This document shows, piece after piece, positions 6,890 through 61,800 of a stretch of 64,000 bases of DNA. The notes under the pieces were generated by a model. The model was not told the origin of the DNA. It saw nothing but the letters and a program-made list of their open reading frames with translations, and did not search any database. The stretch covers positions 1 through 64,000 of the forward strand of contig JARGNI010000029.1 of NCBI GenBank assembly GCA_029213195.1. Reading direction: 5' to 3'. The translations under genes and the position numbers were made by a program. Numbering within the stretch: position 1 is the stretch's first letter; every line of letters begins with the position of its first letter. This DNA comes from Verrucomicrobiales bacterium (GTDB taxonomy: Bacteria > Verrucomicrobiota > Verrucomicrobiia > Verrucomicrobiales > DEV007).

Positions 6890-6896
6890 CAAACAA

Positions 6897-13957: not shown

Positions 13958-13989
13958 TCCCGGGTCCCGGAATCCTCCCGATCGGTCCG

Positions 13990-14928: not shown

Positions 14929-14952
14929 GACGAGGTTGGACGAGGACACGAA

Positions 14953-14982: not shown

Positions 14983-15007
14983 CGCTGAATTCAGTTGGTT
15001 CTCCTGA

Positions 15008-35742: not shown

Positions 35743-37503
35743 ATGATAAATCATATCAGGGAGATTGCGCTGCGATCAGGGTGTTCAAGCTCTGAGGCGC
35801 TGGATGGAGCATTGAGAGGTATTCAGCCCGGTGGGAGTTCGCCCATCAAGGTTTTGCTGGATTCGGATCTCGTCGATGAGGATTCGTTTCTTCAGATTCT
35901 TGGGGATCACTTTGGAATTCCTCTATGGAAAGGGTTTGGAACCCTGAGCCAGCAGAAAACGCGACAATTGCGAAAGCTTTTCCCGGCTGATTCAGCCCGA
36001 AAGCGGGGGATCGTACCGGTCGACTTCCTGAATGATCCCGAGCAGGAAAATTCCACGGTAGTTTTTGCGTCTACGGATCCATTCGATCTACAGTCCCATT
36101 CTTTGGCATCGCGAGTCTGCGAGTTTCCCTTCACTTGGCAAATTGCGAGTCCACAGACGATTCAGAATGGACTTCATTCTCTCTACGGTGTGGGAGATGA
36201 TTCACTCGATGAGCTTATTGAATCTAGGCTCAATGCTGCTGACGGTGATGATTGGGAGAATGCGATGATTCTCGATAGTGAAGACGGTGCGGCATCGCTT
36301 ACATCTCTCGTAAACGAGATTATCCGAGGAGCACTCGAGCAACAGTCGACGGATATTCATCTGGATTCAATCGGCGCCGATCTCAGAATTCGATATCGAA
36401 TCGATGGAAAGCTTCAGGATGTTCCTACTCCAGAGAACATGGGGAGCCTCAAAAACTCTGTGATCTCGAGGATTAAGATCATGGCCAAGCTTGATATCGC
36501 GGAGCGACGCCTGCCACAGGATGGGCGGATTAATTTGGAATTAGACGGCAAGTCTATCGATGTGCGAGTAGCGACTATTCCATCGGTGGAAGGAGAGACG
36601 GTTTCGCTAAGGCTTCTTGGACAGGAAACCTTTACTTTGGACAAGATGGGGATGAACCCGAAGATGGCGGCGACGGTGAAGAATCTCCTGGAGATGCCAA
36701 ATGGAATCATCCTTGTCACTGGGCCAACAGGATCCGGAAAGTCGACGTCCCTCTACGCTTTTCTATCGGAGATCAATCAGCCGGACACGCGGATTGTCAC
36801 TATTGAAGACCCAGTCGAGAACAGGCTTGAAGGGGTTGTTCAGATTGCGGTGAAGAGCGATATTGGTCTTACCTTCGCAAACGGTTTGCGCTCCATCCTG
36901 AGGGGAGATCCCAATGTGATTATGGTGGGTGAGATGAGGGATCTCGAAACCGCTGAGATTGCGATTCGAGCGGCGCTCACGGGACACCTGGTGTTCAGTA
37001 CGCTTCACACGAATGATGCGATATCGGGGGTTACGAGACTCATCGATATGGGAATCGAGCCATTCCTCGTAGCGTCTTCAGTAAGAGCATTCATTGCGCA
37101 ACGTCTCGTGAGAAGACTTTGTAGTAACTGCAAGCAGCCCTATCGGCTCGATCCTTCTATTCTCTCGAGTCATGGCTGGGATTTTCCAGACGATGTCGAT
37201 CACGAACCGATTTTGTATCGTCCTTCTGGTTGCCAACAGTGTCGAGGTACGGGGTATCGCGGGCGTCTCGCAATCTATGAGTTGGTTGTGGTTACAGGGG
37301 CCCTGGAGGAACTGATCGCAAGGAGGGCTTCTTCAAAAGAGCTCCTGCAGCAGGCGTTGCAGGATGGCTTTTTGCCCATGCGAACCTACGGGCTTAACAA
37401 GGCGGTTGAAGGCGAAACGAGTCTTGATGAAGTCATCTCTGTGACGATTACGCCGAGCCAGGCGAACGAGAGCGCACTGTCTGAAGCTGAATTGATGAGA
37501 TGA
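35743..37503 (+). CDS. gspE: Type II secretion ATPase GspE
   Basis: 586 residues; cytoplasmic hexameric ATPase that drives pseudopilus assembly. N-terminal MshEN-type region (residues 1-140). Walker A GPTGSGKSTSLYAFL begins at residue 327; the Asp box TIEDPVENRLEGVVQI, Walker B IMVGEMRDLETAEIA (Met in place of the more common Ile) and STLHTNDAISGVTRLIDMG follow. The zinc site has four cysteines in CSNC and CQQCRGTGYRGR. The stop overlaps gspF by 4 bp. Confidence 0.95.
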   Translation: MINHIREIALRSGCSSSEALDGALRGIQPGGSSPIKVLLDSDLVDEDSFLQILGDHFGIPLWKGFGTLSQQKTRQLRKLFPADSARKRGIVPVDFLNDPEQENSTVVFASTDPFDLQSHSLASRVCEFPFTWQIASPQTIQNGLHSLYGVGDDSLDELIESRLNAADGDDWENAMILDSEDGAASLTSLVNEIIRGALEQQSTDIHLDSIGADLRIRYRIDGKLQDVPTPENMGSLKNSVISRIKIMAKLDIAERRLPQDGRINLELDGKSIDVRVATIPSVEGETVSLRLLGQETFTLDKMGMNPKMAATVKNLLEMPNGIILVTGPTGSGKSTSLYAFLSEINQPDTRIVTIEDPVENRLEGVVQIAVKSDIGLTFANGLRSILRGDPNVIMVGEMRDLETAEIAIRAALTGHLVFSTLHTNDAISGVTRLIDMGIEPFLVASSVRAFIAQRLVRRLCSNCKQPYRLDPSILSSHGWDFPDDVDHEPILYRPSGCQQCRGTGYRGRLAIYELVVVTGALEELIARRASSKELLQQALQDGFLPMRTYGLNKAVEGETSLDEVISVTITPSQANESALSEAELMR

Positions 37504-38717
37504 AGCTTTTCCACTATCAGGCCGCAACTCGCGATGGCTCAATTTCGAACGGGACACTGAGTGCTCCTGATCGTCGTACTGCGCTCGAGCAGTTTGAGGC
37601 TCTGAAGCTGGAACCACTCTCTCTGAGTGAGGAGCCATCGGGAAGGAAGGAAGCGAAGAAACAGCCTGAGGAAAAAGGGAATATAAGGTTGCGTCAATCC
37701 GATGTGCTTGAGTTCACCGAGGAACTTGCCGAGTTGCTACGTGGAGGCGTACAGTTGGAGAAATCCCTCCTGATTATCGAGCGGAGGGAGGGGAAGAGCC
37801 GCCTTCCGGAGGTCGCGAGACAGGTGAGGGAGAAGATCCGTGATGGTAAGACTCTGTCGGAAGCTCTGAAGATCAGTTCCCCGGCATTCGGAGAACTCTA
37901 CTGTCGTCTCGTTGCGGCCGGGGAAGAGAGTGGAGCCCTGAATCGGATACTTGAGAGGCAGGCATCTCATCTGAAGGCGCTACAGAATCTGAAGTCAGGT
38001 GTGGTTTTCGCCTTGATCTATCCCGCTTTCCTTTGTGTTTCTGCGGTCGGGGTTTTGGCAATGTTTGTGACCTTCCTGATTCCTAAATTGGTGGAATTGC
38101 TTGAGTCTACCGGTGGAACTCTGCCAGCGGGAGCAGAGTTGATCGTCAAGACTTCAGAGATGTTCAAGTCAACTTGGGCAATCTGGCTCGGGTTGGGGCT
38201 TGGTGCCTGCTTGTTCTTCTCGTGGTTGTCCCAAAACCGGCGAGAGATATGGGATGCGATCGTGATGAGGGTCCCCCTGTTCGGGAAAGTTTTGCACCTC
38301 AGGCAGCAAGTCCTGTTCCTCGAAACAATGGCCAGTCTCGTTGAAAATGGTCTCACCGTTACGAATGCTCTCACGCTGACTCGCAACGCGGTTCCCAGCC
38401 CACTGTACCAGAGTGAGATCGATGTGATCCGGAAGCGGGTTCAGGATGGGGAGCGACTTTCCACTTCCCTTGTCCACTCATCGTATTTCCCCGCGATTCT
38501 TGCTGATCTCATCTCAGTTGGGGAGGAAACTGGGGATCTTTCGGGTGCTCTGGGTCGAGCTGCAATTCGCTTCGACGGGACGCTAACTCGAAAAGTAGAA
38601 AGGCTGAGTGCCATTATCCAACCGACTGTCGTGATCGTTATGGCAGCGATGGTGGGAGGAATGGCATACCTGATGATCACTTCGATTTTTCAAACCGTAT
38701 CTGGATTAGGAGCATAA
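37500..38717 (+). CDS. gspF: Type II secretion inner-membrane platform protein GspF
   Basis: 405 residues with two T2SSF domains (about 70-195 and 270-395) and three membrane segments: one near 170 (FALIYPAFLCVSAVGVLAMFV), one near 220 (WAIWLGLGLGACLFFSWL), and one at the C-terminus (VVIVMAAMVGGMAYLMI). ELAELLRGGVQLEKSL and GEETGDLSGALGRAA are family blocks. ATGA overlap with gspE upstream; gspG 10 bp downstream. Confidence 0.94.
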   Translation: MKLFHYQAATRDGSISNGTLSAPDRRTALEQFEALKLEPLSLSEEPSGRKEAKKQPEEKGNIRLRQSDVLEFTEELAELLRGGVQLEKSLLIIERREGKSRLPEVARQVREKIRDGKTLSEALKISSPAFGELYCRLVAAGEESGALNRILERQASHLKALQNLKSGVVFALIYPAFLCVSAVGVLAMFVTFLIPKLVELLESTGGTLPAGAELIVKTSEMFKSTWAIWLGLGLGACLFFSWLSQNRREIWDAIVMRVPLFGKVLHLRQQVLFLETMASLVENGLTVTNALTLTRNAVPSPLYQSEIDVIRKRVQDGERLSTSLVHSSYFPAILADLISVGEETGDLSGALGRAAIRFDGTLTRKVERLSAIIQPTVVIVMAAMVGGMAYLMITSIFQTVSGLGA

Positions 38718-38727
38718 AAATACAAAA

Positions 38728-39162
38728 ATGAAATACAGACAGTTAAAGAAACGCAACAGGGCATTCTCGATGATGGAGATGATCCTCGTATTGGGTATCA
38801 TTACCCTTCTCGTTGGAGCCGGTGTAGGAGGGCTGATGAACGTGATGGAGCTCGGAAAGGAGACCAAGGCAAAAGCCGATATCAACACGATTTCGAGTGC
38901 GCTGCGGGCCTATGAATCCCAGCAGCTATACCTTCCGACTACACGCCAGGGAATTGAGGCGCTGGTATGGAAGCCATCGTCCAGGCCTGAGCCAAAAAAC
39001 TGGAAACCGTATCTCAAAGAGAAAGTTCTTACAGATCCTTGGGGGAATAAATACATTTATCTTCGCCCCGGGAAGAAGGATGGCGGTGGGTTCGACCTCT
39101 ATTCCGCAGGTGCTGACGGGGTTGCTGGCAACTCGGATGATATAGGTAACTGGGACATCTAG
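38728..39162 (+). CDS. gspG: Major pseudopilin GspG
   Basis: 144 residues. The prepilin segment reads RNRA/FSMMEMILVLGIITLLV, with Glu at +5 but Ala rather than Gly at the cleavage -1 position. The C-terminal GspG domain shows LPTTRQGIEALVWKP, LKEKVLTDPWGNKYIYLRPG and FDLYSAGADGVAGNSDDIGNW, the calcium-site pattern. Main building block of the pseudopilus. Confidence 0.94.
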   Translation: MKYRQLKKRNRAFSMMEMILVLGIITLLVGAGVGGLMNVMELGKETKAKADINTISSALRAYESQQLYLPTTRQGIEALVWKPSSRPEPKNWKPYLKEKVLTDPWGNKYIYLRPGKKDGGGFDLYSAGADGVAGNSDDIGNWDI

Positions 39163-39191
39163 GTAACTGGGTGTCCTAGGCGAAAGACAGG

Positions 39192-39671
39192 ATGAACGTC
39201 CCTATCGGAGTGCCGTTGCGCCGTGGGTTCACGATGCTGGAGATATTGCTGGCAATATCGATATTGGTAATCGTTCTGGGCCTGGGCTCCGGCTTGGCGC
39301 TTCAGTCGATCCCTCTTGAGCGGTCGCTCAACCGAACTGCGTCAAAAATTGAAGTCGAAGCGAGGAAGGCGGCCATGGAGGCGGCCATGTTTTCTCGGGA
39401 TGCCTTTCTCGTAATACACTCCGACTCATTGGTGGGATTGGACTCAAGAATCGAATTTGATCGTGCGAAGATCTCGTTCTCACATCCAGGAGATTTCAAT
39501 TCTTTCAAGGAACCCTCGTCTAGGGGCTATCGATGGAAGTTCAGCGCGAATGGGCTCTGTGAACCGCTGTTGATTAGGGTTTCCCAGGAAGGGGGACGGA
39601 TTGACTTGGGATTCGATCCACTGACAGGCGAGATCCGAGATCAAGTTCTAACGCTCTTTGAAACAGAATGA
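39192..39671 (+). CDS. Minor pseudopilin, GspH-like
   Basis: 159 residues. Prepilin motif RRG/FTMLEILLAISILVIV with Gly -1 and Glu +5. The rest has no strong signature; position between gspG and the I-like gene, and length, point to GspH. The end overlaps the next gene by 4 bp. Confidence 0.8.
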   Translation: MNVPIGVPLRRGFTMLEILLAISILVIVLGLGSGLALQSIPLERSLNRTASKIEVEARKAAMEAAMFSRDAFLVIHSDSLVGLDSRIEFDRAKISFSHPGDFNSFKEPSSRGYRWKFSANGLCEPLLIRVSQEGGRIDLGFDPLTGEIRDQVLTLFETE

Positions 39672-40096
39672 TTGTTCGAAGAAATACGAGTTTGAGGACC
39701 CGCGGCTCCATGCTTCTGGAGATCATCGTTTCCATTGCGCTCTTCGGTGTCGTTACCACTGCCATGGTCAGTGCTCTCCATCAGCTTTCAAAGACTTCGA
39801 AGACCGCAAGAGATGAAGTTTCCACACAGCGAAGGTTTGAGTCAATATTTGCTGAGCTTGCCTCAGGTTCGAATCCGCAACTTACCAGCGGAAAGAGACT
39901 GATTCCGGCGGACGGGACCGGGATAGCCGTGATGCTGAATGTCGTACCTGAAGAACTGCTCAGTAATGAGGGAGCACCTCTGGGGTCTGTTTTTCGAGTG
40001 ACTATGACCGCAGGGATCGAGGGCGATTCATCATTCGAAAGAACAGCAGAGCGTTTGATCTATGCTCCTCCGAAAGGAAGGACCAGCAATAGATGA
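39668..40096 (+). CDS. Minor pseudopilin, GspI-like
   Basis: 142 residues. Prepilin motif TRG/SMLLEIIVSIALFGVV (Ser at +1, Glu at +5). ATGA overlap with the gene upstream. Assigned to GspI by order and size; the sequence alone only shows a type IV pilin-like N-terminus. Confidence 0.75.
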   Translation: MIVRRNTSLRTRGSMLLEIIVSIALFGVVTTAMVSALHQLSKTSKTARDEVSTQRRFESIFAELASGSNPQLTSGKRLIPADGTGIAVMLNVVPEELLSNEGAPLGSVFRVTMTAGIEGDSSFERTAERLIYAPPKGRTSNR

Positions 40097-40131
40097 AGGG
40101 GGGATTCCGCCCCTTTTTGGAATGATGGCTG

Positions 40132-40758
40132 ATGCACTCCGAGCAGATGACTAGATTACATTCCCATACTCGCGCATTTACGTTGATCGAGGTTGTCGTC
40201 AGCTTGGCGGTCACCGCGATCATCCTGGCGGGAGTGTTTGGAGTCGCGGGAGCAGCGATCGATTTTTCTACCGCTTCCAATCAATTGAGGGTGGAGGAGA
40301 TGCGGTACAATCAATTGTCGCGCTTGGTAAGAACGAGCCTCCTTCAGATGTCTCCCCGCGCGAGAGTGGCACTGGAGAGCGGTCAGTCCCTTACGTTTCT
40401 GGACGCGGGTTCATTGTTCCAATGGCCTGGTTCTGTTTCGAATGGTGCACGAACTGTATTGAGGGGCAGGGATCGGTCACTCGAGATTGTTCAGTATCTA
40501 GGCGACGCCGAAACTTCTTCGCTCGCGCTCCTTACCAATCTGGATCGAATCGCGATTGAGGTCTATGATTTTCGCAGTCGGCAATGGACTAGCTCGGTCC
40601 CCGAAAGTGCGCCAATACGACCTACGATGGTGAGAATGCGTTACCAATTGGATTCGGATTCCGCGGAGCGTGAGGAGGTTTTCAGAATCCCTCGGTATTC
40701 TCAAGTCAACTTCAACAATCGGCAACCGCCCGAAAGTAATGAAGAACCGGCTCAATAA
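40132..40758 (+). CDS. Minor pseudopilin, GspJ-like
   Basis: 208 residues. Prepilin motif TRA/FTLIEVVVSLAVTAIILAG, with Ala instead of Gly at -1, as in GspG of the same operon. The longer, beta-rich C-terminal part fits GspJ. An ATG at 40147 is an alternative start. The end overlaps the gspK-like gene by 20 bp. Confidence 0.78.
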   Translation: MHSEQMTRLHSHTRAFTLIEVVVSLAVTAIILAGVFGVAGAAIDFSTASNQLRVEEMRYNQLSRLVRTSLLQMSPRARVALESGQSLTFLDAGSLFQWPGSVSNGARTVLRGRDRSLEIVQYLGDAETSSLALLTNLDRIAIEVYDFRSRQWTSSVPESAPIRPTMVRMRYQLDSDSAEREEVFRIPRYSQVNFNNRQPPESNEEPAQ

Positions 40759-41650
40759 GGAGAAGCAGATTTCGGGGGCATCTCTCGTAGTTGTCCTTTG
40801 GTTGATTGGGCTTCTTGGATTTCTCATCCTGGGACTTGCAAAGTTCGTTAGCCTTGACTCCCAGTGGGCGATCGCTGTTCGAAAGGAGGCCATCGCGAGA
40901 GACCGTGCCGAAAGCGGCCTGGCCATAGCATCTCATCCGCAAGTGAAGGAAGATGATCCACTCTTGGTCTTTGCGAACGAATCTGGCACTTCAGGGTTCG
41001 AGGTTCAGATTACTTGGGAAGAGGGTCTGGTCCCCCTCAACAATATTTTGATCTCCGGGCGAAAAGACATTTTGAAAAGACTTTTTGAAAGTTGGGGGCA
41101 GCATCCTGATGCTGCAGCCGCACTGGTGGATGCTTTGACTGACTGGGTTGATCAAGATGACCTCGTCTCGTTGAATGGAGCCGAGTCTGATAGCTACGCC
41201 CAGCAAGGGGTCGCTGGCTTTCCGCTAAATCGTCCGTTCGAGTCCTTTGGAGAAGTGGAGTGGGTTCTTGGGATGGGCGAGATTGCGAATCTGAAACCGG
41301 ATTGGAGAGAGTACTTCACTTTTTGGTCAAATGGACAGATCGACCTGAACGAAGCCAATGCCGAAGTCGTTTATGCAGCCATGGGTGGAATAGATCCGGT
41401 TCGGGCATTTGAGTTCGTTCAACAGAGAAATGGTCAGGACGGAATCCCGCGGACGCCTGATGATCGGAGGTTCGACTCTGTCGCTTCAGTTCGTTCCTTT
41501 CTCGGGGCAGCCAGTGAGGCTGACAATGGTATTCTGGCGGTGCGAAGCACGACCAAGCGAATATACAGTGTCGGGTACTTTCAGAACATGAGAGTGGAGA
41601 TCGCTGAGACTCGCCGTTCTGATCTCCTGCTTTGGAGAATGGAGTATTGA
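40739..41650 (+). CDS. gspK: Minor pseudopilin GspK
   Basis: 303 residues. N-terminal hydrophobic helix (SLVVVLWLIGLLGFLILGLA) without the usual Glu at +5, as is typical of GspK, the pseudopilus tip. The helix-hairpin-helix-like insert is visible (LVDALTDWVDQDD; FESFGEVEWVLGM; QIDLNEANAEVVYAAMGG). Start chosen at 40739 (MKNRLNKEKQIS), giving a basic N-terminus just ahead of the helix. Confidence 0.87.
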   Translation: MKNRLNKEKQISGASLVVVLWLIGLLGFLILGLAKFVSLDSQWAIAVRKEAIARDRAESGLAIASHPQVKEDDPLLVFANESGTSGFEVQITWEEGLVPLNNILISGRKDILKRLFESWGQHPDAAAALVDALTDWVDQDDLVSLNGAESDSYAQQGVAGFPLNRPFESFGEVEWVLGMGEIANLKPDWREYFTFWSNGQIDLNEANAEVVYAAMGGIDPVRAFEFVQQRNGQDGIPRTPDDRRFDSVASVRSFLGAASEADNGILAVRSTTKRIYSVGYFQNMRVEIAETRRSDLLLWRMEY

Positions 41651-41680
41651 CATGGTGCGCAACAGTTCTAGCCTTTACGG

Positions 41681-42877
41681 ATGATCGGAAATTCATTCGA
41701 TGCTTACCAAATTTTGTTTCCGGGGCCCCTTGGATGGGAGCTTTGGCTTCTGAAAAATGGTGAAGCAAAACTCCTTTCTTCGGAGAGTACGGGAGGTTCC
41801 GATAGTTTTGACCCCTCGGTTCAAGGGAAGCTTGTTCTTGCCCAAGCAACAACGCAGCAGATAGCTCTGCCCCTCGTTTCCAGCGCATCAGACCCTGAAT
41901 CTCTGGTCCAGGCGGCCCGCCTTCATGTGGAGAAGCAGGGGAGCGAATTCGACGAAGAGGGCATCATGGTAGAGCAGATTCGGGGATCTTCGCAAAAAAC
42001 GGTCGCCAGAGTCGATGCACCGTTGTCCAAGCTGAATGAGGATGCACCCGTTGATCAGACCCCCGATCTCATTGTTGCTGCGCCTACCTTGATGCCATTG
42101 AAAGAGGATTCGATAGCGATTTGGGTAGAACTTGGTAACGTCGTCGTTGCCTTCGAAAAAGGCGGTTCGGTAATCTATTATGACAAGCTTTCTTGTACGG
42201 GGCATGAGCTTGCGAAAGAGGTATACCGGATCATGATCCAGTTGGAGGGAGACGGGTTGATCGAGAGCCCGAAAGTTCTTTCCCTCTGGGGTGTCCCGGG
42301 AGAGTTCTTTGAGGATAAGCTTCAGTTGGAGGTCGAAGTCGAGCCTCGTCCTGCTCCCACGAGAATTCCGAAAGAACCCGGGCAACATCCTTCCTGGTTT
42401 CGGGAACGAGAGGATCAAAATTCTAAGAGTGCGCGCAAGAAACGTCAGCTCCAGATCATGCTGATCGTCTTCGGGGTTTTGGCTTTTTCCTTTTCTGTAT
42501 TTTTTCTGACCAGGTATTTTCAAGTTCGAACACTGAAGGCCGAGATTGCAGCATTGCGTCCCCAAGTCGAAAGAATCGAAGGGATCCAATCGCGTTGGAA
42601 TGAAGTTTCGACCGGGGTGGATCCTGATTCTTCGTTTCTCGAAGTATGGATGAACATCTTCAGCCTGGAGAGCATTGCATCCGTAAAGATTGAGAGAATG
42701 AGGATTTCGAGAGCTGAGATCGAACTTATGGGAAATGCGGAGGAAGCTTCGCAAGCTCTCGAGTTCATTGAGGAACTCTCCACGAGCGACATGTTCCAGG
42801 GATACGCGTGGGAATTTCACCCCCCCAATATCGCGGCAGGTGGAGCTGCTACTTTTGAAATAAAGGGGGGGAAATGA
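41681..42877 (+). CDS. GspL-like inner-membrane protein
   Basis: 398 residues. The N-terminal 240 residues look like the divergent actin-like cytoplasmic domain of GspL/PilM (IAIWVELGNVVVAFEKGG). One membrane helix near residue 270 (IMLIVFGVLAFSFSVFFLT) is followed by a coiled-coil start and a ferredoxin-like periplasmic domain resembling PilN. Order before the GspM-like gene supports the call. It binds GspE in known systems. ATGA overlap with the next gene. Confidence 0.75.
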   Translation: MIGNSFDAYQILFPGPLGWELWLLKNGEAKLLSSESTGGSDSFDPSVQGKLVLAQATTQQIALPLVSSASDPESLVQAARLHVEKQGSEFDEEGIMVEQIRGSSQKTVARVDAPLSKLNEDAPVDQTPDLIVAAPTLMPLKEDSIAIWVELGNVVVAFEKGGSVIYYDKLSCTGHELAKEVYRIMIQLEGDGLIESPKVLSLWGVPGEFFEDKLQLEVEVEPRPAPTRIPKEPGQHPSWFREREDQNSKSARKKRQLQIMLIVFGVLAFSFSVFFLTRYFQVRTLKAEIAALRPQVERIEGIQSRWNEVSTGVDPDSSFLEVWMNIFSLESIASVKIERMRISRAEIELMGNAEEASQALEFIEELSTSDMFQGYAWEFHPPNIAAGGAATFEIKGGK

Positions 42878-43410
42878 CCTCGAGAGAGAAAAAATTGGGC
42901 ATCGCCTTTGCGATTTTGTTTGCCGTAGTAACTGTCGGGTTTATTGCTCCGATGATCTCCAGAATGGGAAAAGGTGGATCTTCAGATCCATCAGAATTGC
43001 TTGAGCAATTGCAATATATGCGATCGACCTTTGACGCCAGGGAGCTTTGGAACGATCGAGAATTCTGGCTGGATGGGAATACGCCATATCACCAGTCGGA
43101 TGTTGTTGCATCTTCGGTGTTGTTGGAGAGGCTCAGTGGGATCCTGGAGTCCCACGACTTGAAGGTAGTGAATCAACAGATTGCGGAAGATGATGATGAC
43201 GCGATTTCAGAAGAAGCAGAGATTCAGCACTTCAACCAGGTGACTGTGCAGATCGTTGCCGAGGGAGAGATGCGAGACATTGTGCAGTGCATTCACGAGA
43301 TTCAGACTCCGAAGAAGTTTACCGGAATTGAAGAATTGGAGCTCACCGTCGCCGAGGCTGGTGCCTACAGAATTGATCTGCGAGTTACTCATTGGTTTTC
43401 TGTTTTCTAG
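42874..43410 (+). CDS. GspM-like inner-membrane protein
   Basis: 178 residues. One N-terminal membrane helix (IAFAILFAVVTVGFIAPMI), then a predicted coiled coil and a small alpha/beta periplasmic domain with VTVQIVAEGEMRDIVQCIHEI, reminiscent of GspM/PilO. Last gene of the gspE-M operon. Sequence similarity is weak, so the call rests on order and topology. Confidence 0.7.
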   Translation: MTSREKKLGIAFAILFAVVTVGFIAPMISRMGKGGSSDPSELLEQLQYMRSTFDARELWNDREFWLDGNTPYHQSDVVASSVLLERLSGILESHDLKVVNQQIAEDDDDAISEEAEIQHFNQVTVQIVAEGEMRDIVQCIHEIQTPKKFTGIEELELTVAEAGAYRIDLRVTHWFSVF

Positions 43411-44211: not shown

Positions 44212-45336
44212 ATGAAATCGATCAAACTCGTTCCCGTACTATTGGTTCTTGTTCTGGCCTTCAGTCCGTTAAGTACAATTGCTGAACAAAAGGAGAGCTC
44301 AAGCCGCTGGGGGGCGAACTACTTTCCGGATCATGAACTGACCGATCACAAGGGTAAGAAGGTGAAGTTTTTCACTGATCTGCTCAAAGACAAGATTGTA
44401 GTAATCAATTTTATCTATACATCCTGTCCCGATACCTGTCCCCTCGAGACGAGCAGACTTCGGGAGGTGTATGCCTTGTTGGAGGAACGCATGGGGAAAG
44501 ACATTTTCTTCTACTCCATAACGATTGACCCAGAGAATGATTCTGTCGCTGTCCTCAAGGACTACGCTGATCGATGGGATGTTGGAGATGGTTGGAAGTT
44601 TCTAACAGGGAATGAGGCCAACATAACGGAGCTCCGGAAGAAGCTCGGTCTTCTCTCTTCACGAGATTCAGTGAATTTGTCGGCCCACCAGGTCAACATG
44701 GTCATGGGAAATCAGAAGACCGGCCGTTGGATTCACCGGACTCCATTCGACTCCGCCGTGGTTCTTGCGGAGCACCTAGGCACTTGGCTCAACAACTATC
44801 GAAACGTCAAGACCTCCTGGAATGATTATGAAGATGCTCCCGAACTGAGGCCAATTGACGGCGGCGAGTATATCTTTCGAACTCGCTGTGCGTCTTGTCA
44901 TACGATCGGTGGAGGTGACGTGCATGGAAACCAATCGAATGTAGCAGGACCCGACTTGCTGGCTGTAGGAGATCGGAGAGATCCCGATTGGCTAAAAAGA
45001 TGGGTTCGCGAGCCCGATGTAATGCTTGCGGAGAAGGATCCGCTGGCGATGGCTTTGTTAGAGCAATACAACGGAGTTGTTATGCCGAATTTTCGTCTTT
45101 CGGAACAGGACGTGGACAATGTTCTCGCATTCATCAAGAGAGAGAGTGATGCCCATCTGAAGGGAAGGGCGGGTGAGTTTCAGCAGGCACGGAAACCAGC
45201 AAATGCAGGGAAGCCGAAAGAGGATTGTCCGGGATGTTCGAAGAGGGCTCAAGAAACGGGTTCTTCTACCCGGGGCGCCCCAAGAACGTGGAATGCAGAT
45301 CAAAGAAGAGTTTTACCTAACACGCCACAGAAATAG
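44212..45336 (+). CDS. SCO1-type copper chaperone fused to a cytochrome c domain
   Basis: 374 residues, exported (signal KLVPVLLVLVLAFSPLSTIA). The SCO thioredoxin-fold domain has the copper motif CPDTC (Cys72, Cys76) and the partner His159 (SAHQVNMVM). A C-terminal class I cytochrome c domain has CASCH at 226-230 and a likely axial Met in GVVMPNF. The tail adds a CPGC pair at about 339. SCO proteins deliver copper or reduce thiols for copper-enzyme assembly. The gene ends 38 bp before the giant multicopper oxidase gene, its probable client. Start at the ATG at 44212, ahead of the signal peptide. Confidence 0.9.
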   Translation: MKSIKLVPVLLVLVLAFSPLSTIAEQKESSSRWGANYFPDHELTDHKGKKVKFFTDLLKDKIVVINFIYTSCPDTCPLETSRLREVYALLEERMGKDIFFYSITIDPENDSVAVLKDYADRWDVGDGWKFLTGNEANITELRKKLGLLSSRDSVNLSAHQVNMVMGNQKTGRWIHRTPFDSAVVLAEHLGTWLNNYRNVKTSWNDYEDAPELRPIDGGEYIFRTRCASCHTIGGGDVHGNQSNVAGPDLLAVGDRRDPDWLKRWVREPDVMLAEKDPLAMALLEQYNGVVMPNFRLSEQDVDNVLAFIKRESDAHLKGRAGEFQQARKPANAGKPKEDCPGCSKRAQETGSSTRGAPRTWNADQRRVLPNTPQK

Positions 45337-45374: not shown

Positions 45375-48300
45375 ATGAAAACCATACACGCCACAAAGCG
45401 CGCATCATTCCTGCGCGCTCTAATTGTCCAGTTCGTCGCAGTTTCGATTGCCATACTCGCGCTGGGTCAGGAACCCGAAGGGCCACCGCCGCAGGACGAT
45501 CCGTCTAAGCACACGGGTCCATGGATCGATGAGAAGGGTGCAGATGATCTTCTTCGCTCGACTCCCAAAGTATTTAAATCGGCATACGAAGGAGGAGAAC
45601 CGCATGGACGTCCTCTGCCGGAGCAGTCTGGAAACATTCCTACGGGAGGAATTGCGAGCCCACTTTTTGGAGCGACAGAGTTTGAACAGCAGTTCCTTCG
45701 GTTTGAGGAATTCGGTCCGAAGAAAATGCAAGGCGCTCAAGAGCATTTCCAGACGCTACCCTTGCCGGAGAGCCCAACAGGATTTCCGGAAGGAGGTAGT
45801 CTCGATTCGTTCTTGTCCTTGGAGGGTTTTTCGTTCCTTCCATCTGAATTCTCGAATACTGAGGAATTGAACCCGTGGCAGACAATTGTGGAGTCATTCC
45901 TCGGTCGCCCATTACAGACTCCTCCTGCTGAAGGGCGTCCTCCGGGAGTTGGCTGGGCTCACCAGAGATGGGATGAGTTTCTACCAGAAGTCTACTTTAA
46001 GACGGCCCAGACGGGGGCGCGTATCAACGGTGGATTGCGGAATCCATTGCAACGCCACAATTACCAAAAAGGAGAGTTTGCTCCCGGGGGACTATATCAC
46101 ACGGTCTACGCGACCGATGGTCTGGGGGCGCTTTTCAGCGGGACGACTGAGGGAATCAACGTTCAGTTTCACCCGAACTTCCCGATTCAGGATCGGAGGA
46201 GTTTGTGGACTTTCGATGGGACCTTCCCACCAAAGCTCCTCATGGCACGTTATGGTGAGCCCGTCTTGATGCGGCACTACAACGCACTTCCCATTGATCC
46301 TGCCGCAAACAATGGCTTCGGCTTGCACACCATAACAACTCACGAGCACAACGGACACAATCCGGCCGAGAGTGATGGTGTTGCGGGTGCGTTCTATTTT
46401 CCAGGGCAGTTCTGGGATTATCGCTGGCCGATGACATTGGCAGGGTATGATACAGTCAACACGACGGCTTCGGATCCGCGGGCTGCTTTTCCTGCTGAGC
46501 CTGGAGAACAGCTATTCGTAAATGACCTCAATCCTGGTGTAAGGCAGGAGCAAGATGGGCGGATCAACATTCGAGGTGACTGGAGAGAGACTATGTCAAC
46601 GCACTGGTTTCATGATCACATGATCGACCACACTGCAGAGAATGTTTACAAAGGAAATGCGGCAATGTTCAACTACTACAGTGCGGTTGATCGAGGAAAC
46701 GAAGGCTTTGACGATGGTGTGAACCTGAGATTTCCTAGCGGAACGGGGCTTAGTTGGGGCAACCGGGACTATGATGTGAACATTCTTGTGGCGGATAAAG
46801 CCTGGGATGCTGATGGGCAGCTTTTCTTCAATCCGTTCGATCGTGATGGATTTCTTGGAGACCAGGTTCTTACCAATTTCCTCTGGAAGCCCTATCTGAA
46901 TGTTAGGCACCGTTCTTACCGGCTCCGAATTTTGAATGGGGCTGTCGCGCGCTACTTCAAAATTGCCTTGGTCAAGGAGGTCCAGGGAAGTGGAGGCGAG
47001 CTCTCCGGCCCTCCAGGATCAGGAGTGTCCTATGATCGCATCGGGTTTCACATGATCGCGAACGATGGAAACATTCTTGAACACGCTGTCCCATTCGATG
47101 GGATTAGTGACTTGAACGCGAACGGAAATGCAGACGAACACAAAGGAATGTTGCCTAGTCTGGGAATTGCCGAGCGCTACGACATTATCGTGGACTTCGC
47201 CAGCCAGGGGATTGTTCCTGGAGATAAACTCTATTTCGTCAACACTCTCGAGCACGATGATGGTCGTGGGCCGGATGGAATGATTCCGTTGTCGGAGATT
47301 CTCTCGGGGCAGTACGTTGCAGAGCAGCGTGATGGTGTCTGGGTTTCGAATGATCCAGCAGTTGGAAAGTTCTTGGAGTTCCGTGTCACGGAATATGACG
47401 GTGAGGACTTGAGCATGAATCCTGCGGACTATGTTCCCGGGGCGCAGAAGATGATCCCATTGCCGATCGATAGAACGGCTCTTGGAAATCCTAAGAGAAG
47501 GACATTCGAATTTGGAAGAGGGTCCGGTACGGACAACGCGCCTTGGACCATCAAGACGGACGGGGGGCCATCATTGCTTGGAGACCCTCGAAGAGTTTCG
47601 GCCGCGGCTCAGATAGCCACGGGGCCTACTGCCGCCGGATTCGATGGCACCAATGCTGAGGGGTACGATGTGACAGGAACTCTTGAAATCTGGAATTTTA
47701 GTACAGGAGGAGGTTGGGATCACCCTGTCCACGTTCACTTTGAGGAGGGCGTCATTCTTTCAAAGGATGGTGAGAGGCCTCCCGTCTGGGAATGGTGGGC
47801 TCGAAAGGATCTCTATCGTATTGGGCCTTCCATTGATAGCGCACGTGAAATGGAGATTGCGATGCGAATCCGTGAGTTCGCAGGGACCTTTGTGGAGCAC
47901 TGTCACAATACAACTCATGAGGATCATGCCATGCTGTTGCGTTGGGATTCTGAGCTGCCTGGTCAAGTTAAGTTGATGCCCACTCCTGTTCCATCATGGG
48001 ATGGTGTCGAGTATGTTGACACGGTCGCGTTGCCCACTTTCCGAAGTGGAGTCAATGGTCCCGAATTACCCGAGAATAACCCTTTTGTCTCACCAGTGAT
48101 CGACTCGTTTACCGGTACGTCGGAGAATGGTGAGTCGGTCTTGTCGTGGAGTATCAATCAAGATTCCGGTGACAATATTCTCGCTCTTGATCTGTCACCT
48201 GGTGTCGGATCCGTTCTGGGAAGAACGTCGACCGTGGTCAACCCTTCCCAAACGACGATTTATCGTCTCACTGCGAGGACTCCGGGAGGAACCTCCACCG

Positions 48301-51300
48301 CAACGATCACAGTTTCTCCAGATGGAACGATTGGAGAAGGGGATATCAACAACGGAGGAATACCAGGAGATGACCTGCTTACGAACGGTGATTTTGAAGC
48401 TGAACTTGATGGATGGACCTTTGTGAATTCGAATGTCGGATCTACAGAAGTTGTTCTTGATTCCGTGAATGGTTCCTCCGTGGCGGTGCTCAATGATAGC
48501 CGAATTCATCGAAGTGTTCCCGTTGAAGGTGGGCAAAATTATATCTTCTCTATCATGTATAGAAACGAAGATGATCCTTCAATGAGGATGTCGATCGAGT
48601 TCTTCGACGCTTCCGGTGGCTCTGTGGGACTGTTCGAAAATACTCCCACGACGAGCGTGAATTATCGAACGACCTCGGTCAGGGGGCTTGCTCCGGCTGA
48701 AGCGGTTAGCGCTACCATCTCATTCGCGTCGAGCCAGCCTGGATTGACTTATGTCGATAATGCGTTTTTCGCTGTGGAGGAACTCGTTGAACCGGAGCTT
48801 CCGGCACGATACCGAATCAACTTCAGTGGTTTATTCAATAGCACCACGCATCCGGATGCAAACTTTCCGGCGGATCCAAAGTTCTCGAAGCTGCTCGCGG
48901 CGACGCATGCTGCAGATGAGCGGATCTGGGCAGTGGGTGAACTTGCTTCCGGACCGGTCGTCACACTGGCGGAGACGGGATCGGAAGCTGCTTTGGCAGA
49001 GTTGATTGATTCCCAAGTGGGGAATGGTTTTGGAGGGTATGCGGTCTCGCCTGAATTCCTGGATGGAACGGGATCAACCAGTGTGGAGGTCCAAGCATTG
49101 CCTGAGTTCCCCATTCTCTCCCTGATCAGTCAGATCTCTCCGAGTCCCGACTGGTTCACCGGTCTCGATAGTATCAATCTGAAAGACGATGATGGAAACT
49201 GGATTTCAGTGATCGAACTGGACCTGTATCCATTGGATGCTGGGAGCGATAGCGGAACGACTTATGGAGCCGATGACCTCAGCACCATCCCGCGTTCGGT
49301 TGTTACCGCGTTGCGCGATACTTCGCCCTTCTCGAGTTTGCCAGTCGGTCGGGTAACGATCTCGCTTGTGAATGATGGACCAGTCATCAAGGGTGATAAT
49401 TTGCTGGCTAACCCTGGATTCGAGGATGAATTCACAAGCTGGGAAACTTTCGTTACTGTTAACGGAAGCGCAAGCATCACCACTGTCTCTGCAAATGGAT
49501 TGTCTGCTGCCGAGCTGAATGGAGCCCTGGTTTATCAGGGCGTGCCTGTTGAGCCGGAAGAGAATTATGAGCTGGCAGTTCAATACTTCTCGCCGGGTGC
49601 GGCCGAAACCCTTGTGGGAATCGAATTTTTTGATGCGTCAGGAAACTCACTTCTGGTGGAAGAGGTAAGCCCGTCGACGAATTCTCGATATGAGTCGGTA
49701 ACGGTAAGTGCTACCGCGCCAGAGGGCTCGGTCTCCGCAAATGTATATTTCTGGAGTGCCGAAGGAAGCGTCACAAAGGTTGATGACTTCGATTTTCACA
49801 CCATTAACGTTGTGATCGATAACCCCGAACCGGAAGTTCAGGAGAACTCCCTGAAGAATGGGGGATTCGAGAACCGTTTCTCATCCTGGAATCGGAAGAA
49901 GCTTTTTCGTCGGGGATGGAGGATTTCGATCTCGAGGAAGGAGTTCGAAGGAAGGTATGCCGCTTCGATAAAAGGTGGGATGATCTATCAGAATGTATCG
50001 GTTAAGGAAGGGGCGGAGTTCTCATTCAGCGGGAAGTACATTTCGACGCATAAAAAGTCGGACTCCGAGGTTGGTATTGCATTCTTCAATGCTAGCGGAA
50101 AATTGATCGATGCAGCGAGCTATAAGCTCACGCCCATCAGGGAATACACGGGGTTTGCAATTTCTGGCGAGGCTCCTGAAGGCACTGTAAGCGGTAAGGT
50201 CTATGTTGTCGGAGATCGGAGAGGTAGGATATTGATCGATGATCTCGTATTGAATGTGGTGAGTGGCGAGTCAGAGGTTCCTCAAGAGCTCCTTGGCCCA
50301 ACAGTGCGCCTGACGACCGCTGCTACGGGAGTCGAGCAACCGTTTACCGTGAATGTCATTTTTTCTGAGAACATCTCGGGACTGGAGTTGTCGGATTTCA
50401 TTATCGCGAATGGAGTAGCTAGTGGTCTATCCACCATTGCTGAATGTGAGTATTTCGTGACAGTGACTCCTGCAGGAGCTGATGCTGTTCGTATCTCCCT
50501 TCCTTCAGGGGCAGTTACAAATGATGTTGAGCAGCCTAACCGGCCTTCGAACACCCTGATCGTCGGAGAAGGGGGGCTTCCTGAAGATCCCGGAGCAGAC
50601 CCAGAGCCGCAGCCGGAGTCTCTGAAGAATCGGGAAGTCCCTGAACCTTCGAATCTCAGTGAATTCATTCGAGACAAAGAGGCCGCGATTGAGCTTGGTA
50701 AGGCACTCTTCTGGGATATGCAGGTAGGGAGCAACAATTCGGTTTCCTGTGCGACTTGCCATTTCCATGCTGGTGCTGACAATCGTATTGTGAACCAGGT
50801 GAGTCCTGGGCTACTTCGTGTCAACAGCAACGGTGAGAGCGATCCCGACAACACTTTTCAGGTGGGTGGGCCGAACTACGAGTTCAAGCGGGAGGATTTC
50901 CCTTTCCACAAGCTGGAAGATGTAGATGATCGAGACTCTGAAGTGATCTCAAGTGTCAATGATATCGCAAGTTCTCAGGGGGTATTCCTTGAGGAAGCCG
51001 GAGGGCTCAAATACACGAGAGACCGAGAGCGAAACACTGTCATTCCAGATGACGTGTTCCATGTAGGTGTCGTGAATACGAGACGGGTTGAGCCTCGAAA
51101 TACTCCTACGGTTATCAACTCGATCTTCAATCTCAGGAACTTTTGGGATGGAAGAGCCCAGGATACCTTTAATGGGGTGAATCCGTTTGGAGGGCGTGAT
51201 CAGGGAGCCTATGTCTGGAAGGCGGAGAGCAAGAAGAAGGTAGAGAAAGTGCAAATCAGGATTGATAAGGCGAGTCTCGCTTCTCAAGCGGTCGGTCCTC

Positions 51301-52505
51301 CTTTGAGCAACTTTGAGATGTCTGCCACTGGCCGGAGATTTCCCGAGCTCGGAAGGAAGCTTCTCAACAGGCGTCCTTTGGATGCTCAGCTTGTCCACAG
51401 AGACGATAGCGTTCTCGGGAAATACAGCCGTCATCCTCGTCAGGGTATGACTGTCTCCAAGTATTCTACCTTGGTGAAGCGAGCCTTTCATCCAGAGTGG
51501 TGGCAAGGAACCACCCGATTGATTATCGAGGATGAAGAACCAATGAATGACACGGCTGACGCAGGTGGAATCCCCGCTCTCTCGAAAGCCATGAAGAAAG
51601 GTAAAGGGAACAAGAAAGGTAAGGTTTTCAAGAATGGATTCACGCACATGGAGGCGAACTTCAGCCTCTACTTCGGTTTGGCGATCCAGCTCTATGAAGC
51701 TACTCTTGTTTCTGACGATACTCCATTCGACCGGTATGTTGAGGGTGATACCACCGCTCTAACCGCCGAGGAGCAAAAGGGAATGGATATCTTCTTTGGA
51801 AAAGCAAAGTGTGCGAGCTGCCACGGTGGTGCCGAGTTTACCAAAGCAACAGTATCCCACGTCGAGAAAGAGCGACTGGAGCGAATGATCATGGGCGACG
51901 GAAATCAGGCCGTCTATGACAACGGATTCTATAATATTGGGGTTCGACCTACCTTTGAGGATTTGGGTGTAGGTGGATCTGATCCGTTCGGGTTCCCGCT
52001 TTCTGAATCGCGTTTGGCCGAGCAGTTTGGCTCCGAAGTCTTCAAAGAAGTCATCGGAGACAGCCCAAATCTGTCGGTAGCATCAGGGGAGCGAATTGCG
52101 GCTGACGGCGCATTCAAGACACCGACATTGCGGAATATTGAGCTGACAGCTCCGTATTTTCACAATGGGGGGACGCTTACCCTGATGGAGGTGGTTGAGT
52201 TCTACAATCGAGGCGGGGATTTTCACGATGAGAATATCGATAACCTTGATCCCGATATCGAAAGCCTTGGGCTGAGTGACGAAGAGAAAAAGGCTCTAGT
52301 GGCCTTTATGAAATCTCTTACAGACGAGAGGGTCCGGACCCGTCGTGCTCCTTTTGATCACCCGCAACTAATCATCCCGAATGGGCATAAGGGCGATGAA
52401 ACAAGCGTGGAAGACCGGGGCAACGGAACGGCTCGCGATAATATCTTCATTCTTCCTGCTACCGGTAAGGAAGGTGGCGAGCCTTTGCCAAACTTTCTTG
52501 AATAG
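45375..52505 (+). CDS. Giant exported fusion: multicopper oxidase, galactose-binding-like repeats, spondin, and di-heme (MauG/CcpA-type) peroxidase
   Basis: 2376 residues with signal peptide (residues 8-31, ALIVQFVAVSIAILALG). The CotA/phenoxazinone-synthase-like multicopper oxidase spans about 190-880 with all four copper-motif regions: HEHNGH (323-328), HWFHDH (410-415), HPVHVHF (783-789), HCHNTTHEDHAM (842-853). Three repeats of a galactose-binding-like domain start LLTNGDFE (999), LLANPGFE (1342) and SLKNGGFE (1491). Between the first two is a spondin domain (about 1145-1310; PSPDWFTGLDSINL, LYPLDAGSDSG). An Ig-like module is near 1640-1735. The C-terminal di-heme peroxidase (about 1755-2340) has CATCH (1792) and CASCH (2146), RNTPTVINSIFN and FKTPTLRNIELTAPYFHNGG. 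The substrate is unknown. Confidence 0.93.
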   Translation: MKTIHATKRASFLRALIVQFVAVSIAILALGQEPEGPPPQDDPSKHTGPWIDEKGADDLLRSTPKVFKSAYEGGEPHGRPLPEQSGNIPTGGIASPLFGATEFEQQFLRFEEFGPKKMQGAQEHFQTLPLPESPTGFPEGGSLDSFLSLEGFSFLPSEFSNTEELNPWQTIVESFLGRPLQTPPAEGRPPGVGWAHQRWDEFLPEVYFKTAQTGARINGGLRNPLQRHNYQKGEFAPGGLYHTVYATDGLGALFSGTTEGINVQFHPNFPIQDRRSLWTFDGTFPPKLLMARYGEPVLMRHYNALPIDPAANNGFGLHTITTHEHNGHNPAESDGVAGAFYFPGQFWDYRWPMTLAGYDTVNTTASDPRAAFPAEPGEQLFVNDLNPGVRQEQDGRINIRGDWRETMSTHWFHDHMIDHTAENVYKGNAAMFNYYSAVDRGNEGFDDGVNLRFPSGTGLSWGNRDYDVNILVADKAWDADGQLFFNPFDRDGFLGDQVLTNFLWKPYLNVRHRSYRLRILNGAVARYFKIALVKEVQGSGGELSGPPGSGVSYDRIGFHMIANDGNILEHAVPFDGISDLNANGNADEHKGMLPSLGIAERYDIIVDFASQGIVPGDKLYFVNTLEHDDGRGPDGMIPLSEILSGQYVAEQRDGVWVSNDPAVGKFLEFRVTEYDGEDLSMNPADYVPGAQKMIPLPIDRTALGNPKRRTFEFGRGSGTDNAPWTIKTDGGPSLLGDPRRVSAAAQIATGPTAAGFDGTNAEGYDVTGTLEIWNFSTGGGWDHPVHVHFEEGVILSKDGERPPVWEWWARKDLYRIGPSIDSAREMEIAMRIREFAGTFVEHCHNTTHEDHAMLLRWDSELPGQVKLMPTPVPSWDGVEYVDTVALPTFRSGVNGPELPENNPFVSPVIDSFTGTSENGESVLSWSINQDSGDNILALDLSPGVGSVLGRTSTVVNPSQTTIYRLTARTPGGTSTATITVSPDGTIGEGDINNGGIPGDDLLTNGDFEAELDGWTFVNSNVGSTEVVLDSVNGSSVAVLNDSRIHRSVPVEGGQNYIFSIMYRNEDDPSMRMSIEFFDASGGSVGLFENTPTTSVNYRTTSVRGLAPAEAVSATISFASSQPGLTYVDNAFFAVEELVEPELPARYRINFSGLFNSTTHPDANFPADPKFSKLLAATHAADERIWAVGELASGPVVTLAETGSEAALAELIDSQVGNGFGGYAVSPEFLDGTGSTSVEVQALPEFPILSLISQISPSPDWFTGLDSINLKDDDGNWISVIELDLYPLDAGSDSGTTYGADDLSTIPRSVVTALRDTSPFSSLPVGRVTISLVNDGPVIKGDNLLANPGFEDEFTSWETFVTVNGSASITTVSANGLSAAELNGALVYQGVPVEPEENYELAVQYFSPGAAETLVGIEFFDASGNSLLVEEVSPSTNSRYESVTVSATAPEGSVSANVYFWSAEGSVTKVDDFDFHTINVVIDNPEPEVQENSLKNGGFENRFSSWNRKKLFRRGWRISISRKEFEGRYAASIKGGMIYQNVSVKEGAEFSFSGKYISTHKKSDSEVGIAFFNASGKLIDAASYKLTPIREYTGFAISGEAPEGTVSGKVYVVGDRRGRILIDDLVLNVVSGESEVPQELLGPTVRLTTAATGVEQPFTVNVIFSENISGLELSDFIIANGVASGLSTIAECEYFVTVTPAGADAVRISLPSGAVTNDVEQPNRPSNTLIVGEGGLPEDPGADPEPQPESLKNREVPEPSNLSEFIRDKEAAIELGKALFWDMQVGSNNSVSCATCHFHAGADNRIVNQVSPGLLRVNSNGESDPDNTFQVGGPNYEFKREDFPFHKLEDVDDRDSEVISSVNDIASSQGVFLEEAGGLKYTRDRERNTVIPDDVFHVGVVNTRRVEPRNTPTVINSIFNLRNFWDGRAQDTFNGVNPFGGRDQGAYVWKAESKKKVEKVQIRIDKASLASQAVGPPLSNFEMSATGRRFPELGRKLLNRRPLDAQLVHRDDSVLGKYSRHPRQGMTVSKYSTLVKRAFHPEWWQGTTRLIIEDEEPMNDTADAGGIPALSKAMKKGKGNKKGKVFKNGFTHMEANFSLYFGLAIQLYEATLVSDDTPFDRYVEGDTTALTAEEQKGMDIFFGKAKCASCHGGAEFTKATVSHVEKERLERMIMGDGNQAVYDNGFYNIGVRPTFEDLGVGGSDPFGFPLSESRLAEQFGSEVFKEVIGDSPNLSVASGERIAADGAFKTPTLRNIELTAPYFHNGGTLTLMEVVEFYNRGGDFHDENIDNLDPDIESLGLSDEEKKALVAFMKSLTDERVRTRRAPFDHPQLIIPNGHKGDETSVEDRGNGTARDNIFILPATGKEGGEPLPNFLE

Positions 52506-58892: not shown

Positions 58893-61800
58893 CTATTTCG
58901 CAATCTTCTCGTCGTCTCCGTGGCTTTCTTCGCCGTGAGAAGAGCTGTTCTTTTTCCCTCCCTTTTTCTGTGCTGCAAGGTAAGCAACGAGATCTCGCAG
59001 ATCCTTGGGAGGAAGTGCCATGGCGACCGGAGGCATCGCCGATACCGGTGGGGCGACTTCCTTCACCTTCTCTCGATCGACACGAGTGGGCTTGTTGTCG
59101 AGGCCGACGACGACAAGGTGGTCCTTGGCCTCCGAGGCGAGGCGACCGACGATGGAGTCGCCACTCTTCAGCGAAATCGTGGTCATGCCATAGCCTTCGG
59201 TGATTTCTGCTCCCGGGTTCACGATGGCTTCGAGCACCTTCTCACGTGAAAGTTTCTTTCCGACTCCCGAGAGGTTGGGGCCCTGGACTCCGCCTTCTTT
59301 TCCGACCTTGTGGCACTGCAGGCAGGCGCCCTGGTTCTTGAAGACGATCTCACCCCGGGCGATATCTCCGCCCTGGAGGCTCAGGTCAAATACTGCATTG
59401 GGACTCGTGGCCGCATAGGTAGCCGCCGCTTCGTCACCGGCGGCGCTCAGGAGGAGGTAGGCGTCGAGCCAGAGTCCGCGGCGGAGGTCTTTCTCCCGAC
59501 CCGACCAGAGAGCCTGGATCTTTGTCGGCTCCGATTTCCCCCAACCTTCGAGAGCGGCGCGGGCGACGATGAGATCGTCTTTGGCGATGGCTTCGGAGGC
59601 GACCGTTGCGACATCGGCGATTCCGCGTGCGAATCCTTCCCGAATCGCTGCAGCTCGAACCGCTGCGGCGGGATCTTTCCAAAGTCCCGTGATGATTCCG
59701 TTGAGCGCCTCGGCGTCTTGGACTTCTTCGGATTTGACGAGGCTGTCGAGGATGGCGACCCGGAGGTCCGGGGTGAGGGCTTCGTTGACGACCTGGCTCA
59801 TCAGGGTATCGGGGTCGAGATCGATACCGGTAGAGGTTGCGAGTTCCATCCCGAGGGTCATGAGCGCAGAATCGTGGGGTTGGGTCAGGAATTTGCGAAG
59901 GTCCTTTCCGATGGCACCGGCGAGGGCCTCCGCGGAGCGATCGGCAGAGGTCGAGACAGGGCGGAAGGTCCCATGGACGGGATCGGTGACGATGGGGGTT
60001 GTCCACATCTGCAGGGCGAGCAGGGCCGACTTTCGGACCGAAAGCTTGAGCTCGGGAGTGCCGGCAAGCGAGAGGAGTTCCCTGGCGTGGTCGACCCCTC
60101 CTCGGCGATAGTTGGCGGCGATGATACGTCGCTGAACCGTCTCGGGAAAGTTGGCCGTAGCCGATCCCAGGGCCGCGAGTTGGTCACCCGCTTCGGAATC
60201 AACGGCTGCGGTGTCGTAGACCGCGCGGACCGCTTCCCGGGCGATCAGCGGATTGCCATCATCGAGAAACTCGGCAGTGGCGGGACTTTCATGACGGCGC
60301 AGGGCGAGAAGGGCGAGGAGTCGGATTTCACTGGAGTCGGAGTCTGCCTTTTCAATCAGGCTTTGCTCTGTGGCGAGGCGGTCGAGAGCGGTGAGAAGAG
60401 CATGGCGAAGAACCACGTCGGTGTCATTGGCTTCGTTCTGCTGCACTGCTGCGAAGATCGTCTCGATCAAATTCTCGTCGCCTCGTTCTCCGAGTCGGCT
60501 CAGGGCAATCGCGGCGAGGGAACGGACCCGGTCGGAAGCATCGTTCTTCACGACGGCGACGAGAGCTTCCTTGGCCGAAGCCTCCCCGAGGTCTCCGAGG
60601 ACACGGGCAGCGTTCGCACGGATTTCGGGTTCGCTGTCCTCAAGCAGGCTGATGAGAGGTTTTGTCACCGCGACTCCGCGACGACCGGCCTGACCAAGTC
60701 CCCAGGTCGCGTGGAGCCTCGAGTAGAGAGAGGCACCTGTCGTGGCGACCGAGGCGAGATGCGTTTTGCCTTCGACTTCCCGATCGACGAGAGCGAACTG
60801 CGCTTCCTGGCGGACGCGACGATCCGCGTGGCTGAGGAGGTCGAGGAGTTCCTTGTCCTCACGCTTGGCAAATCCTTTGGCGAACAAAGCAGCGACTTCC
60901 TGCCCAGCCTTCTGCTTGGCCGGGTCCGTCGAGCCGGCGACCTGGATAGATCCGTTGGTGTTGACACTCCAGCCGCCACCGAAATCGCAGAGATAGATAT
61001 TTCCATCAAACCCGAGTTCGACATCGCTCGCTCCGACGCCTTTGAAAACGACCTCTTCGGAGGTAGCGTGGTAACCGGCGCCTTTGGGTTCGACACCGAC
61101 GGAGAGAACCGTGCAGTTGGCGGAGGGGCCTCGGTAGTTCGCGAGGAGAAACTTACCCTTGAGATCGTCGGGGAGAGAATTCCCGGTCAGGTAGGTGACC
61201 CCGGAAGGTCCTCGCGCGACATGGGAGGCGGGTGGATAGACCCACTGGGGCTGGTTTTCATTCCAGGTGTCGTACATTTTCTCCGCGACCCACATGGATT
61301 TCTCGGGATGAAAGTCACCCCAGTCGAGATGCGTCACGTAGTGGTGAGGAGACTGGTGAGACATGTCCCAACCGGAGTCGGTCCCTTCGAGAGCGTAGAC
61401 CATGCGGGCGAGGTCTCCGATGTCGCCAGTGTTGTCGAAGGTGAAGAGATTCCCGTAGTCGTCAAAGGCGAGTTCCTGCGGATTGCGAAGGCCCTCACAG
61501 AACACCTCGAGACCGGAACCATCGGACTCGCAGCGAAAGATCGCGCCTCGTCCCGAGCCGGGGTGGGTTTCTCCCTTGGCATCGGTCACGTGATACCCTC
61601 GGTCTCCCACGGAGAAGTAGAGCCGTCCATCGGGTCCGCGAATGATCCCATGCAGGTCGTGCCCGATGAAGGACACCCGGACTCCGTATCCCGTCGAGAT
61701 CACTTCCTCTTCATCGGCAATGCCGTCATCGTCGGTATCGGTCAGCTTCCATACGTGTGGGATGCAGGTGAAAAAGACCGAGCCCTCGTCGGCGAGCACA

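Follow-up and report, generated by a model that had tools for sequence, protein, structure and literature searches.

The question raised by this locus is whether one bacterial protein really joins a multicopper oxidase (MCO) to a di-heme enzyme and, if so, what the two parts would do together. The window, i.e. the whole stretch of DNA analysed, comprises 64,000 nucleotides of contig JARGNI010000029.1 from a Verrucomicrobiales bacterium (GCA_029213195.1). A sequence-only reading had placed four copper motif regions and two CxxCH heme sites in one frame of 2376 codons; all were found at the positions it gave, and the frame runs from its ATG to its stop without an internal stop codon (Table 1). 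The order from the N- to the C-terminus is a signal-peptide-like segment, the MCO, a spondin domain among three repeats, a Big_12 Ig-like domain and the di-heme domain. Besides Spond_N and Big_12, Pfam matched Cu-oxidase_2 at residues 768-857 (3.5e-5) and CCP_MauG in three stretches (5e-23).

An assembly error or frameshift joining two genes, the flaw that the sequence-only reading had itself named, is excluded because two other genomes of the same genus (G003 and G009) encode the entire protein as a single frame, with identities of 66% (residues 14-2376) and 65% (residues 20-2376), and because GC and GC3 are level along the whole ORF. Identity to both full-length relatives (loci L006/L025 and L007/L026) was approx. 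80% in the MCO, 51-53% in the linker and 68-70% in the di-heme domain. The search for the same domain order in other genomes thus yielded two relatives; the full-length architecture occurs in only three of 57 related genomes, that of the window included, and a sample of 388 genomes of the phylum gave no fusion beyond the window's genome. Full-text literature searches found no published description of an MCO-di-heme fusion, in agreement with the earlier statement that no such combined enzyme was known.

Table 1. Features of the fusion gene, its surroundings and the compared loci. Positions are those of the window unless a locus is named; residue numbers are in brackets.
Feature	Position	Strand	Basis or remark
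GspD-type secretin	32318..34594	-	Pfam Secretin 3.3e-40
Type II secretion operon: GspE, GspF, GspG, pseudopilins, GspK, GspM and neighbours	35743..43410	+	Pfam
SCO1/SenC copper chaperone fused to cytochrome c (CPDTCP and CASCH)	44212..45336	+	38 bp upstream of the fusion gene
Fusion protein, 2376 aa: signal peptide, MCO, linker with spondin and repeats, di-heme MauG/MbnH-type domain	45375..52505	+	
MCO domain (201-880), bilirubin-oxidase/CotA type	45975..48014	+	Alignment, profile match, Foldseek
Copper motif 1, HEHNGH (323-328)	46341..46358	+	Invariant in MCO alignment
Copper motif 2, HWFHDH (410-415)	46602..46619	+	Invariant in MCO alignment
Copper motif 3, W781-D-HPVHVH (781-788)	47715..47738	+	W-x-H invariant; aligned to bilirubin oxidase GWTHPIHIH
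Copper motif 4, HCHNTTHEDHAM (842-853), type 1 Cys/His and axial Met	47898..47933	+	Invariant in MCO alignment
Linker repeat 1 (from 1004), end approximate	48384..48779	+	
Spondin_N domain (1144-1318)	48804..49328	+	Pfam 9.2e-37; Spondin-2 3d34, 3.2e-28
Linker repeat 2 (from 1346), end approximate	49410..49754	+	Weak NTTRR-F1 match
Linker repeat 3 (from 1495), end approximate	49857..50264	+	
Big_12 Ig-like domain (1643-1717)	50301..50525	+	Pfam 1.6e-7
Di-heme domain (1736-2340)	50580..52394	+	Alignment; best PDB match 6e1c; best NCBIfam TIGR04039 MbnH
Heme 1 motif CATCH (1792-1796)	50748..50762	+	Invariant in di-heme alignment
Inter-heme Trp1924 in FWDGRA	51144..51146	+	Trp in most members, His in a few
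Candidate distal Glu1981 in EMS	51315..51317	+	Invariant in alignment; aligned to EMS of 1nml
Heme 2 motif CASCH (2146-2150)	51810..51824	+	Invariant in di-heme alignment
Axial Tyr2277 in EFYNRGG, as in MauG and MbnH	52203..52205	+	Alignment
MCO-SCO pair with large peroxidase gene, Limimaricola and Fuscovulum plasmids	L058:471-7376; L059:16814-19731		
Secreted family of approx. 620-840 aa, members	L046:6253-8487; L045:2927-4879, 4893-7379; L048:11136-13118, 13522-15396		
Secreted family of approx. 620-840 aa, further members	L036:1981-4035; L126:4540-7050; L061:3062-5479		

The copper sites of the laccase-like oxidase are intact. The ligands are H323/H325 (and H328), H410/H413/H415, H783/H786/H788, H842-C843-H844, H848 and M853, and the ten His, the Cys and the axial Met of the four motifs are invariant among 24 aligned MCOs. 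In its description as a CotA/phenoxazinone-synthase-like enzyme the CotA part stood, but bilirubin oxidase is nearer: its structure 2xll gave the best profile match (5e-33), followed by CotA, with phenoxazinone synthase lower, and Foldseek, run on a predicted model of the putative three-cupredoxin fold that was partly confident (mean pLDDT 54), ranked 6iqz/bilirubin oxidase first and CotA next. The window's MCO shares with Myrothecium verrucaria bilirubin oxidase and CotA the four copper motifs, the axial Met and a Trp before the type 1 His, whereas it is only remotely similar to them overall, has an extra conserved N-terminal region and is accompanied by SCO1-cytochrome c and di-heme partners. 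The Trp in question, Trp781, lies two residues ahead of His783, a ligand of the type 1 copper; all homologues that span the motif retain this Trp, MCOs without a di-heme partner included. It aligns with Trp396 of bilirubin oxidase, which is covalently linked to the type 1 His398 (PMC6757100).

In the di-heme domain both CxxCH hemes, the distal Glu and the axial Tyr are invariant among nine aligned proteins. The axial Tyr sits on the second heme domain, in a context conserved across the family as F/H-Y-x-x-GG, and aligns with the Tyr of MbnH. Classical cytochrome c peroxidases (CcpA) have a Met as axial ligand. Since the ligand here is a Tyr, the CcpA half of the former label MauG/CcpA-type is unsupported and a CcpA-type peroxidase was rejected, while the MauG half holds; judged by its residues, the domain is MauG/MbnH-type and not classical CcpA. 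It was filed as neither MbnH nor MauG, because its NCBIfam scores (137 of 363 bits for MbnH and 119 of 444 for MauG) fall far below the curated cut-offs. The best PDB profile match, 6e1c, bears the title 'Di-heme enzyme'. The two CxxCH, axial Tyr, inter-heme Trp and distal Glu are shared with MbnH/MauG; the long family-specific insertions are not, and the partner of those enzymes is MbnP or methylamine dehydrogenase, whereas the window's family is fused to or lies next to an MCO. No match to TIGR04052 (MbnP) was obtained in genome G000, and control genomes likewise gave none.

Two rival readings concern the role of the di-heme domain. In the first, which is the main rival to an enzyme with two oxidants of its own, the protein would mature itself: the MauG/MbnH-like domain would oxidise an MCO or linker residue (e.g. 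Trp781), or help to form a copper site. We consider this unlikely, and its narrower form, in which the conserved MCO Trp (e.g. Trp781) would be oxidised to build the active site in a pair fused at least twice, a little more doubtful still. Such a role is consistent with MbnH and then MauG being the closest named models, with 6e1c as the best structural match, and with the presence of the MauG-type axial Tyr, distal Glu and inter-heme Trp; the position of Trp781 at that of the crosslinked Trp396 also fits, as does the pairing of copper proteins with MbnH/MauG-like genes, the copper site of MopE containing a Trp-derived kynurenine (PMC3621798). However, the crosslink of bilirubin oxidase is ascribed, with no helper involved, to the fold and the type 1 copper potential (PMC6757100), and MCOs without a di-heme partner also keep Trp781. 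G024 and G054 encode close relatives of the di-heme domain in the absence of the MCO, and several MCO genomes, though most of them incomplete, are without the di-heme family. In the second reading the di-heme domain would only remove H2O2 and useful oxidation would be left to the MCO. The CCP_MauG match and the peroxidases among the PDB relatives agree with it, but the axial Tyr in place of the CcpA Met does not, and an MCO produces water rather than H2O2, so that linkage is not obviously needed; we regard this reading as very improbable.

The surroundings of the gene bear on export and copper loading. Export of the protein, as first proposed, is supported by its signal peptide and by the type II secretion operon next to the gene. 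L025 and L026 carry this operon as well, there on the opposite side of the fusion gene and converging with it, and type II secretion genes adjoin MCO genes in the window, L025, L026, L030 and a Fuscovulum plasmid. In G024 a separate di-heme gene, 62% identical, is found between the secretin and GspE genes (L055:2965-4905), and no MCO of the fusion's family was detected in that genome. This placement suggests that the di-heme protein itself may be cargo of this secretion system.

Elsewhere the MCO stands as a gene of its own: in Myxococcota, Pseudomonadota, Bdellovibrionota, Planctomycetota and one other verrucomicrobial lineage. Of the 28 loci of the genome scan (two fused loci counted), 24 have the SCO1-cytochrome c gene next to the MCO, and in three of the remaining four the locus ends close to the MCO or at it. 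Six scan loci (L032, L036, L043, L045, L046 and L048) have a separate di-heme gene near the MCO, and a Paraburkholderia plasmid is the seventh such locus. The di-heme family was present in 16 of 22 MCO genomes versus 14 of 274 sampled gammaproteobacteria. Within this sample the MCO occurred in four genomes (two of them already known from the locus search) and both families in two, i.e. the di-heme family in 2/4 MCO genomes versus 12/270 others (p=0.014). Addition of the gammaproteobacteria from the MCO locus search, which makes the set biased, gave 6/10 versus 12/270 (5e-6). Absences are weak evidence in this comparison, since many of its genomes are metagenome assemblies and incomplete. In two plasmids from Rhodobacteraceae that lack the di-heme family, a large heme peroxidase is encoded near the MCO-SCO pair; the peroxidase that was scanned, from Limimaricola, combines animal-haem-peroxidase with RTX, a composition also described for the Mn-oxidising MopA (PMC6247904). 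The two plasmids give a hint that an oxidising partner, rather than one particular fold, matters. The set of MCO, SCO1-cytochrome c and di-heme genes has apparently not been described, and the fusion would be its rare end-state.

A secreted protein family of approx. 620-840 residues (Table 1) adjoins the di-heme gene in several phyla and may be a third partner. Its core had no match in Pfam, NCBIfam or PDB, and no member was found in the window's genome.

A second fusion is present in Ramlibacter monticola, a cultured soil bacterium, as one frame of 1623 residues without spondin. This organism has four members of the MCO family, one of them fused to a di-heme domain. In the MCO tree the fused copy falls among the unfused Ramlibacter paralogues; in the di-heme tree its domain groups with the separate Paraburkholderia gene, and the window's domain with separate verrucomicrobial genes. 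A single origin was therefore rejected, as the trees of both domains set the Ramlibacter and verrucomicrobial fusions apart. When an alphaproteobacterial copy or another one from Burkholderiales was sought, only the seed genomes came up. The strongest evidence for cooperation of the two enzymes is that the same pair was fused twice independently and with the same order of domains. This second fusion and the separate neighbouring genes in other phyla, both missed by the sequence-only reading, support a joint function, of a protein pair rather than of one chimera; the two enzymes very probably cooperate.

The spondin domain predicted between the two enzymes was confirmed. Of the galactose-binding-like repeats proposed there, three mutually related repeats do exist, but the name of the fold is unproven, as no Pfam domain covers them and only NTTRR-F1 appeared, below its cut-off. 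The linker spans approx. 860 residues versus approx. 40 in Ramlibacter, and its length argues against a fixed close contact of the copper and heme sites; the predicted models (AlphaFold2, mean pLDDT of 38 for the di-heme domain, too poor for use, and 54 for the MCO) gave no usable geometry or inter-domain distance. A further reading is an intramolecular electron relay, in which a donor would feed the hemes and these the type 1 copper, or the reverse, within one respiratory or metal-oxidising unit. Copper and heme centres do share one chain, the adjacent SCO protein has a cytochrome c domain, and metal redox processes are known to involve extracellular MCOs that have SCO1 and cytochrome partners (PMC5566968). 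However, the difference in linker length and the separate genes elsewhere mean that no geometry is conserved, and we hold the relay to be quite improbable.

The reading that we favour, at about even chances, is that of a secreted bifunctional oxidative enzyme whose copper part would use O2 and whose di-heme part would use H2O2. It starts from what was observed directly (one frame, intact ligands, conserved architecture, genomic pairings, two independent fusions and the adjacent secretion operon). Following export by Sec, the SCO1-cytochrome c protein would assist in supplying the MCO part with copper; the type II secretion system would then take the folded product to the surface of the cell or into the medium. 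Electrons would enter the MCO at the type 1 copper and reduce O2 to water at the trinuclear site, while the tethered Tyr-ligated di-heme domain would turn H2O2 into a second, high-potential oxidant. This could act on the substrate of the MCO or on a coupled one, consuming peroxide. The spondin domain and the repeats would act as a spacer and would probably serve adhesion. Electron transfer between copper and heme, handling of peroxide where oxidation takes place and attachment to a surface, all raised by the sequence-only reading, are inferences. Counting against the two-oxidant enzyme, the characterised Tyr-ligated MauG and MbnH are mainly protein-modifying oxidases and not bulk peroxidases; the length of the linker also counts against it.

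Candidate substrates are Mn(II), iodide or another halide, phenolics and protein, the first two heading the list because MCO-SCO1/SenC clusters occur in manganese oxidation (PMC11409713), in OmpB/MofA settings (PMC5566968) and with iodide. The iodide oxidase IoxA of Iodidimonas is accompanied by SCO1/SenC proteins and flanking gsp genes (PMC9415286); by gene context alone it resembles the window's locus in bringing an MCO, SCO1/SenC and general secretion genes together, but it has 62 kDa and no di-heme gene is reported. The manganese- or iron-linked clusters of OmpB/MofA and P. putida McoA/MnxG (PMC5566968, PMC11409713) are alike by gene content, combining an extracellular MCO with genes for SCO1/SenC and cytochrome c, whereas a MauG-type partner or fusion is not described there. 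In methanotrophs MopE/CorA with SACCP/CorB also pair a surface copper protein with a MauG-like di-heme protein (PMC3621798), but the former is a copper-binding protein instead of an MCO and the genes are separate. MCO-SCO-cytochrome clusters are suspected in the oxidation of manganese, iron and iodide, and their partner proteins are poorly understood; the repeated pairing and double fusion with a MauG-type enzyme point to a missing partner. The cultured Ramlibacter monticola makes this partnership testable.

Two further observations were made. Planctomycete di-heme proteins reach 1528-1634 residues (L126:7313-12202, L127:3854-8437 and L128:9601-14502), and beside each gene lies a divergent one of 773-775 codons, of which the one scanned gave only a sub-threshold chlorophyllase match. 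In the window, positions 58893-62330 encode a DUF7133/HEAT/cytochrome c protein (Pfam).
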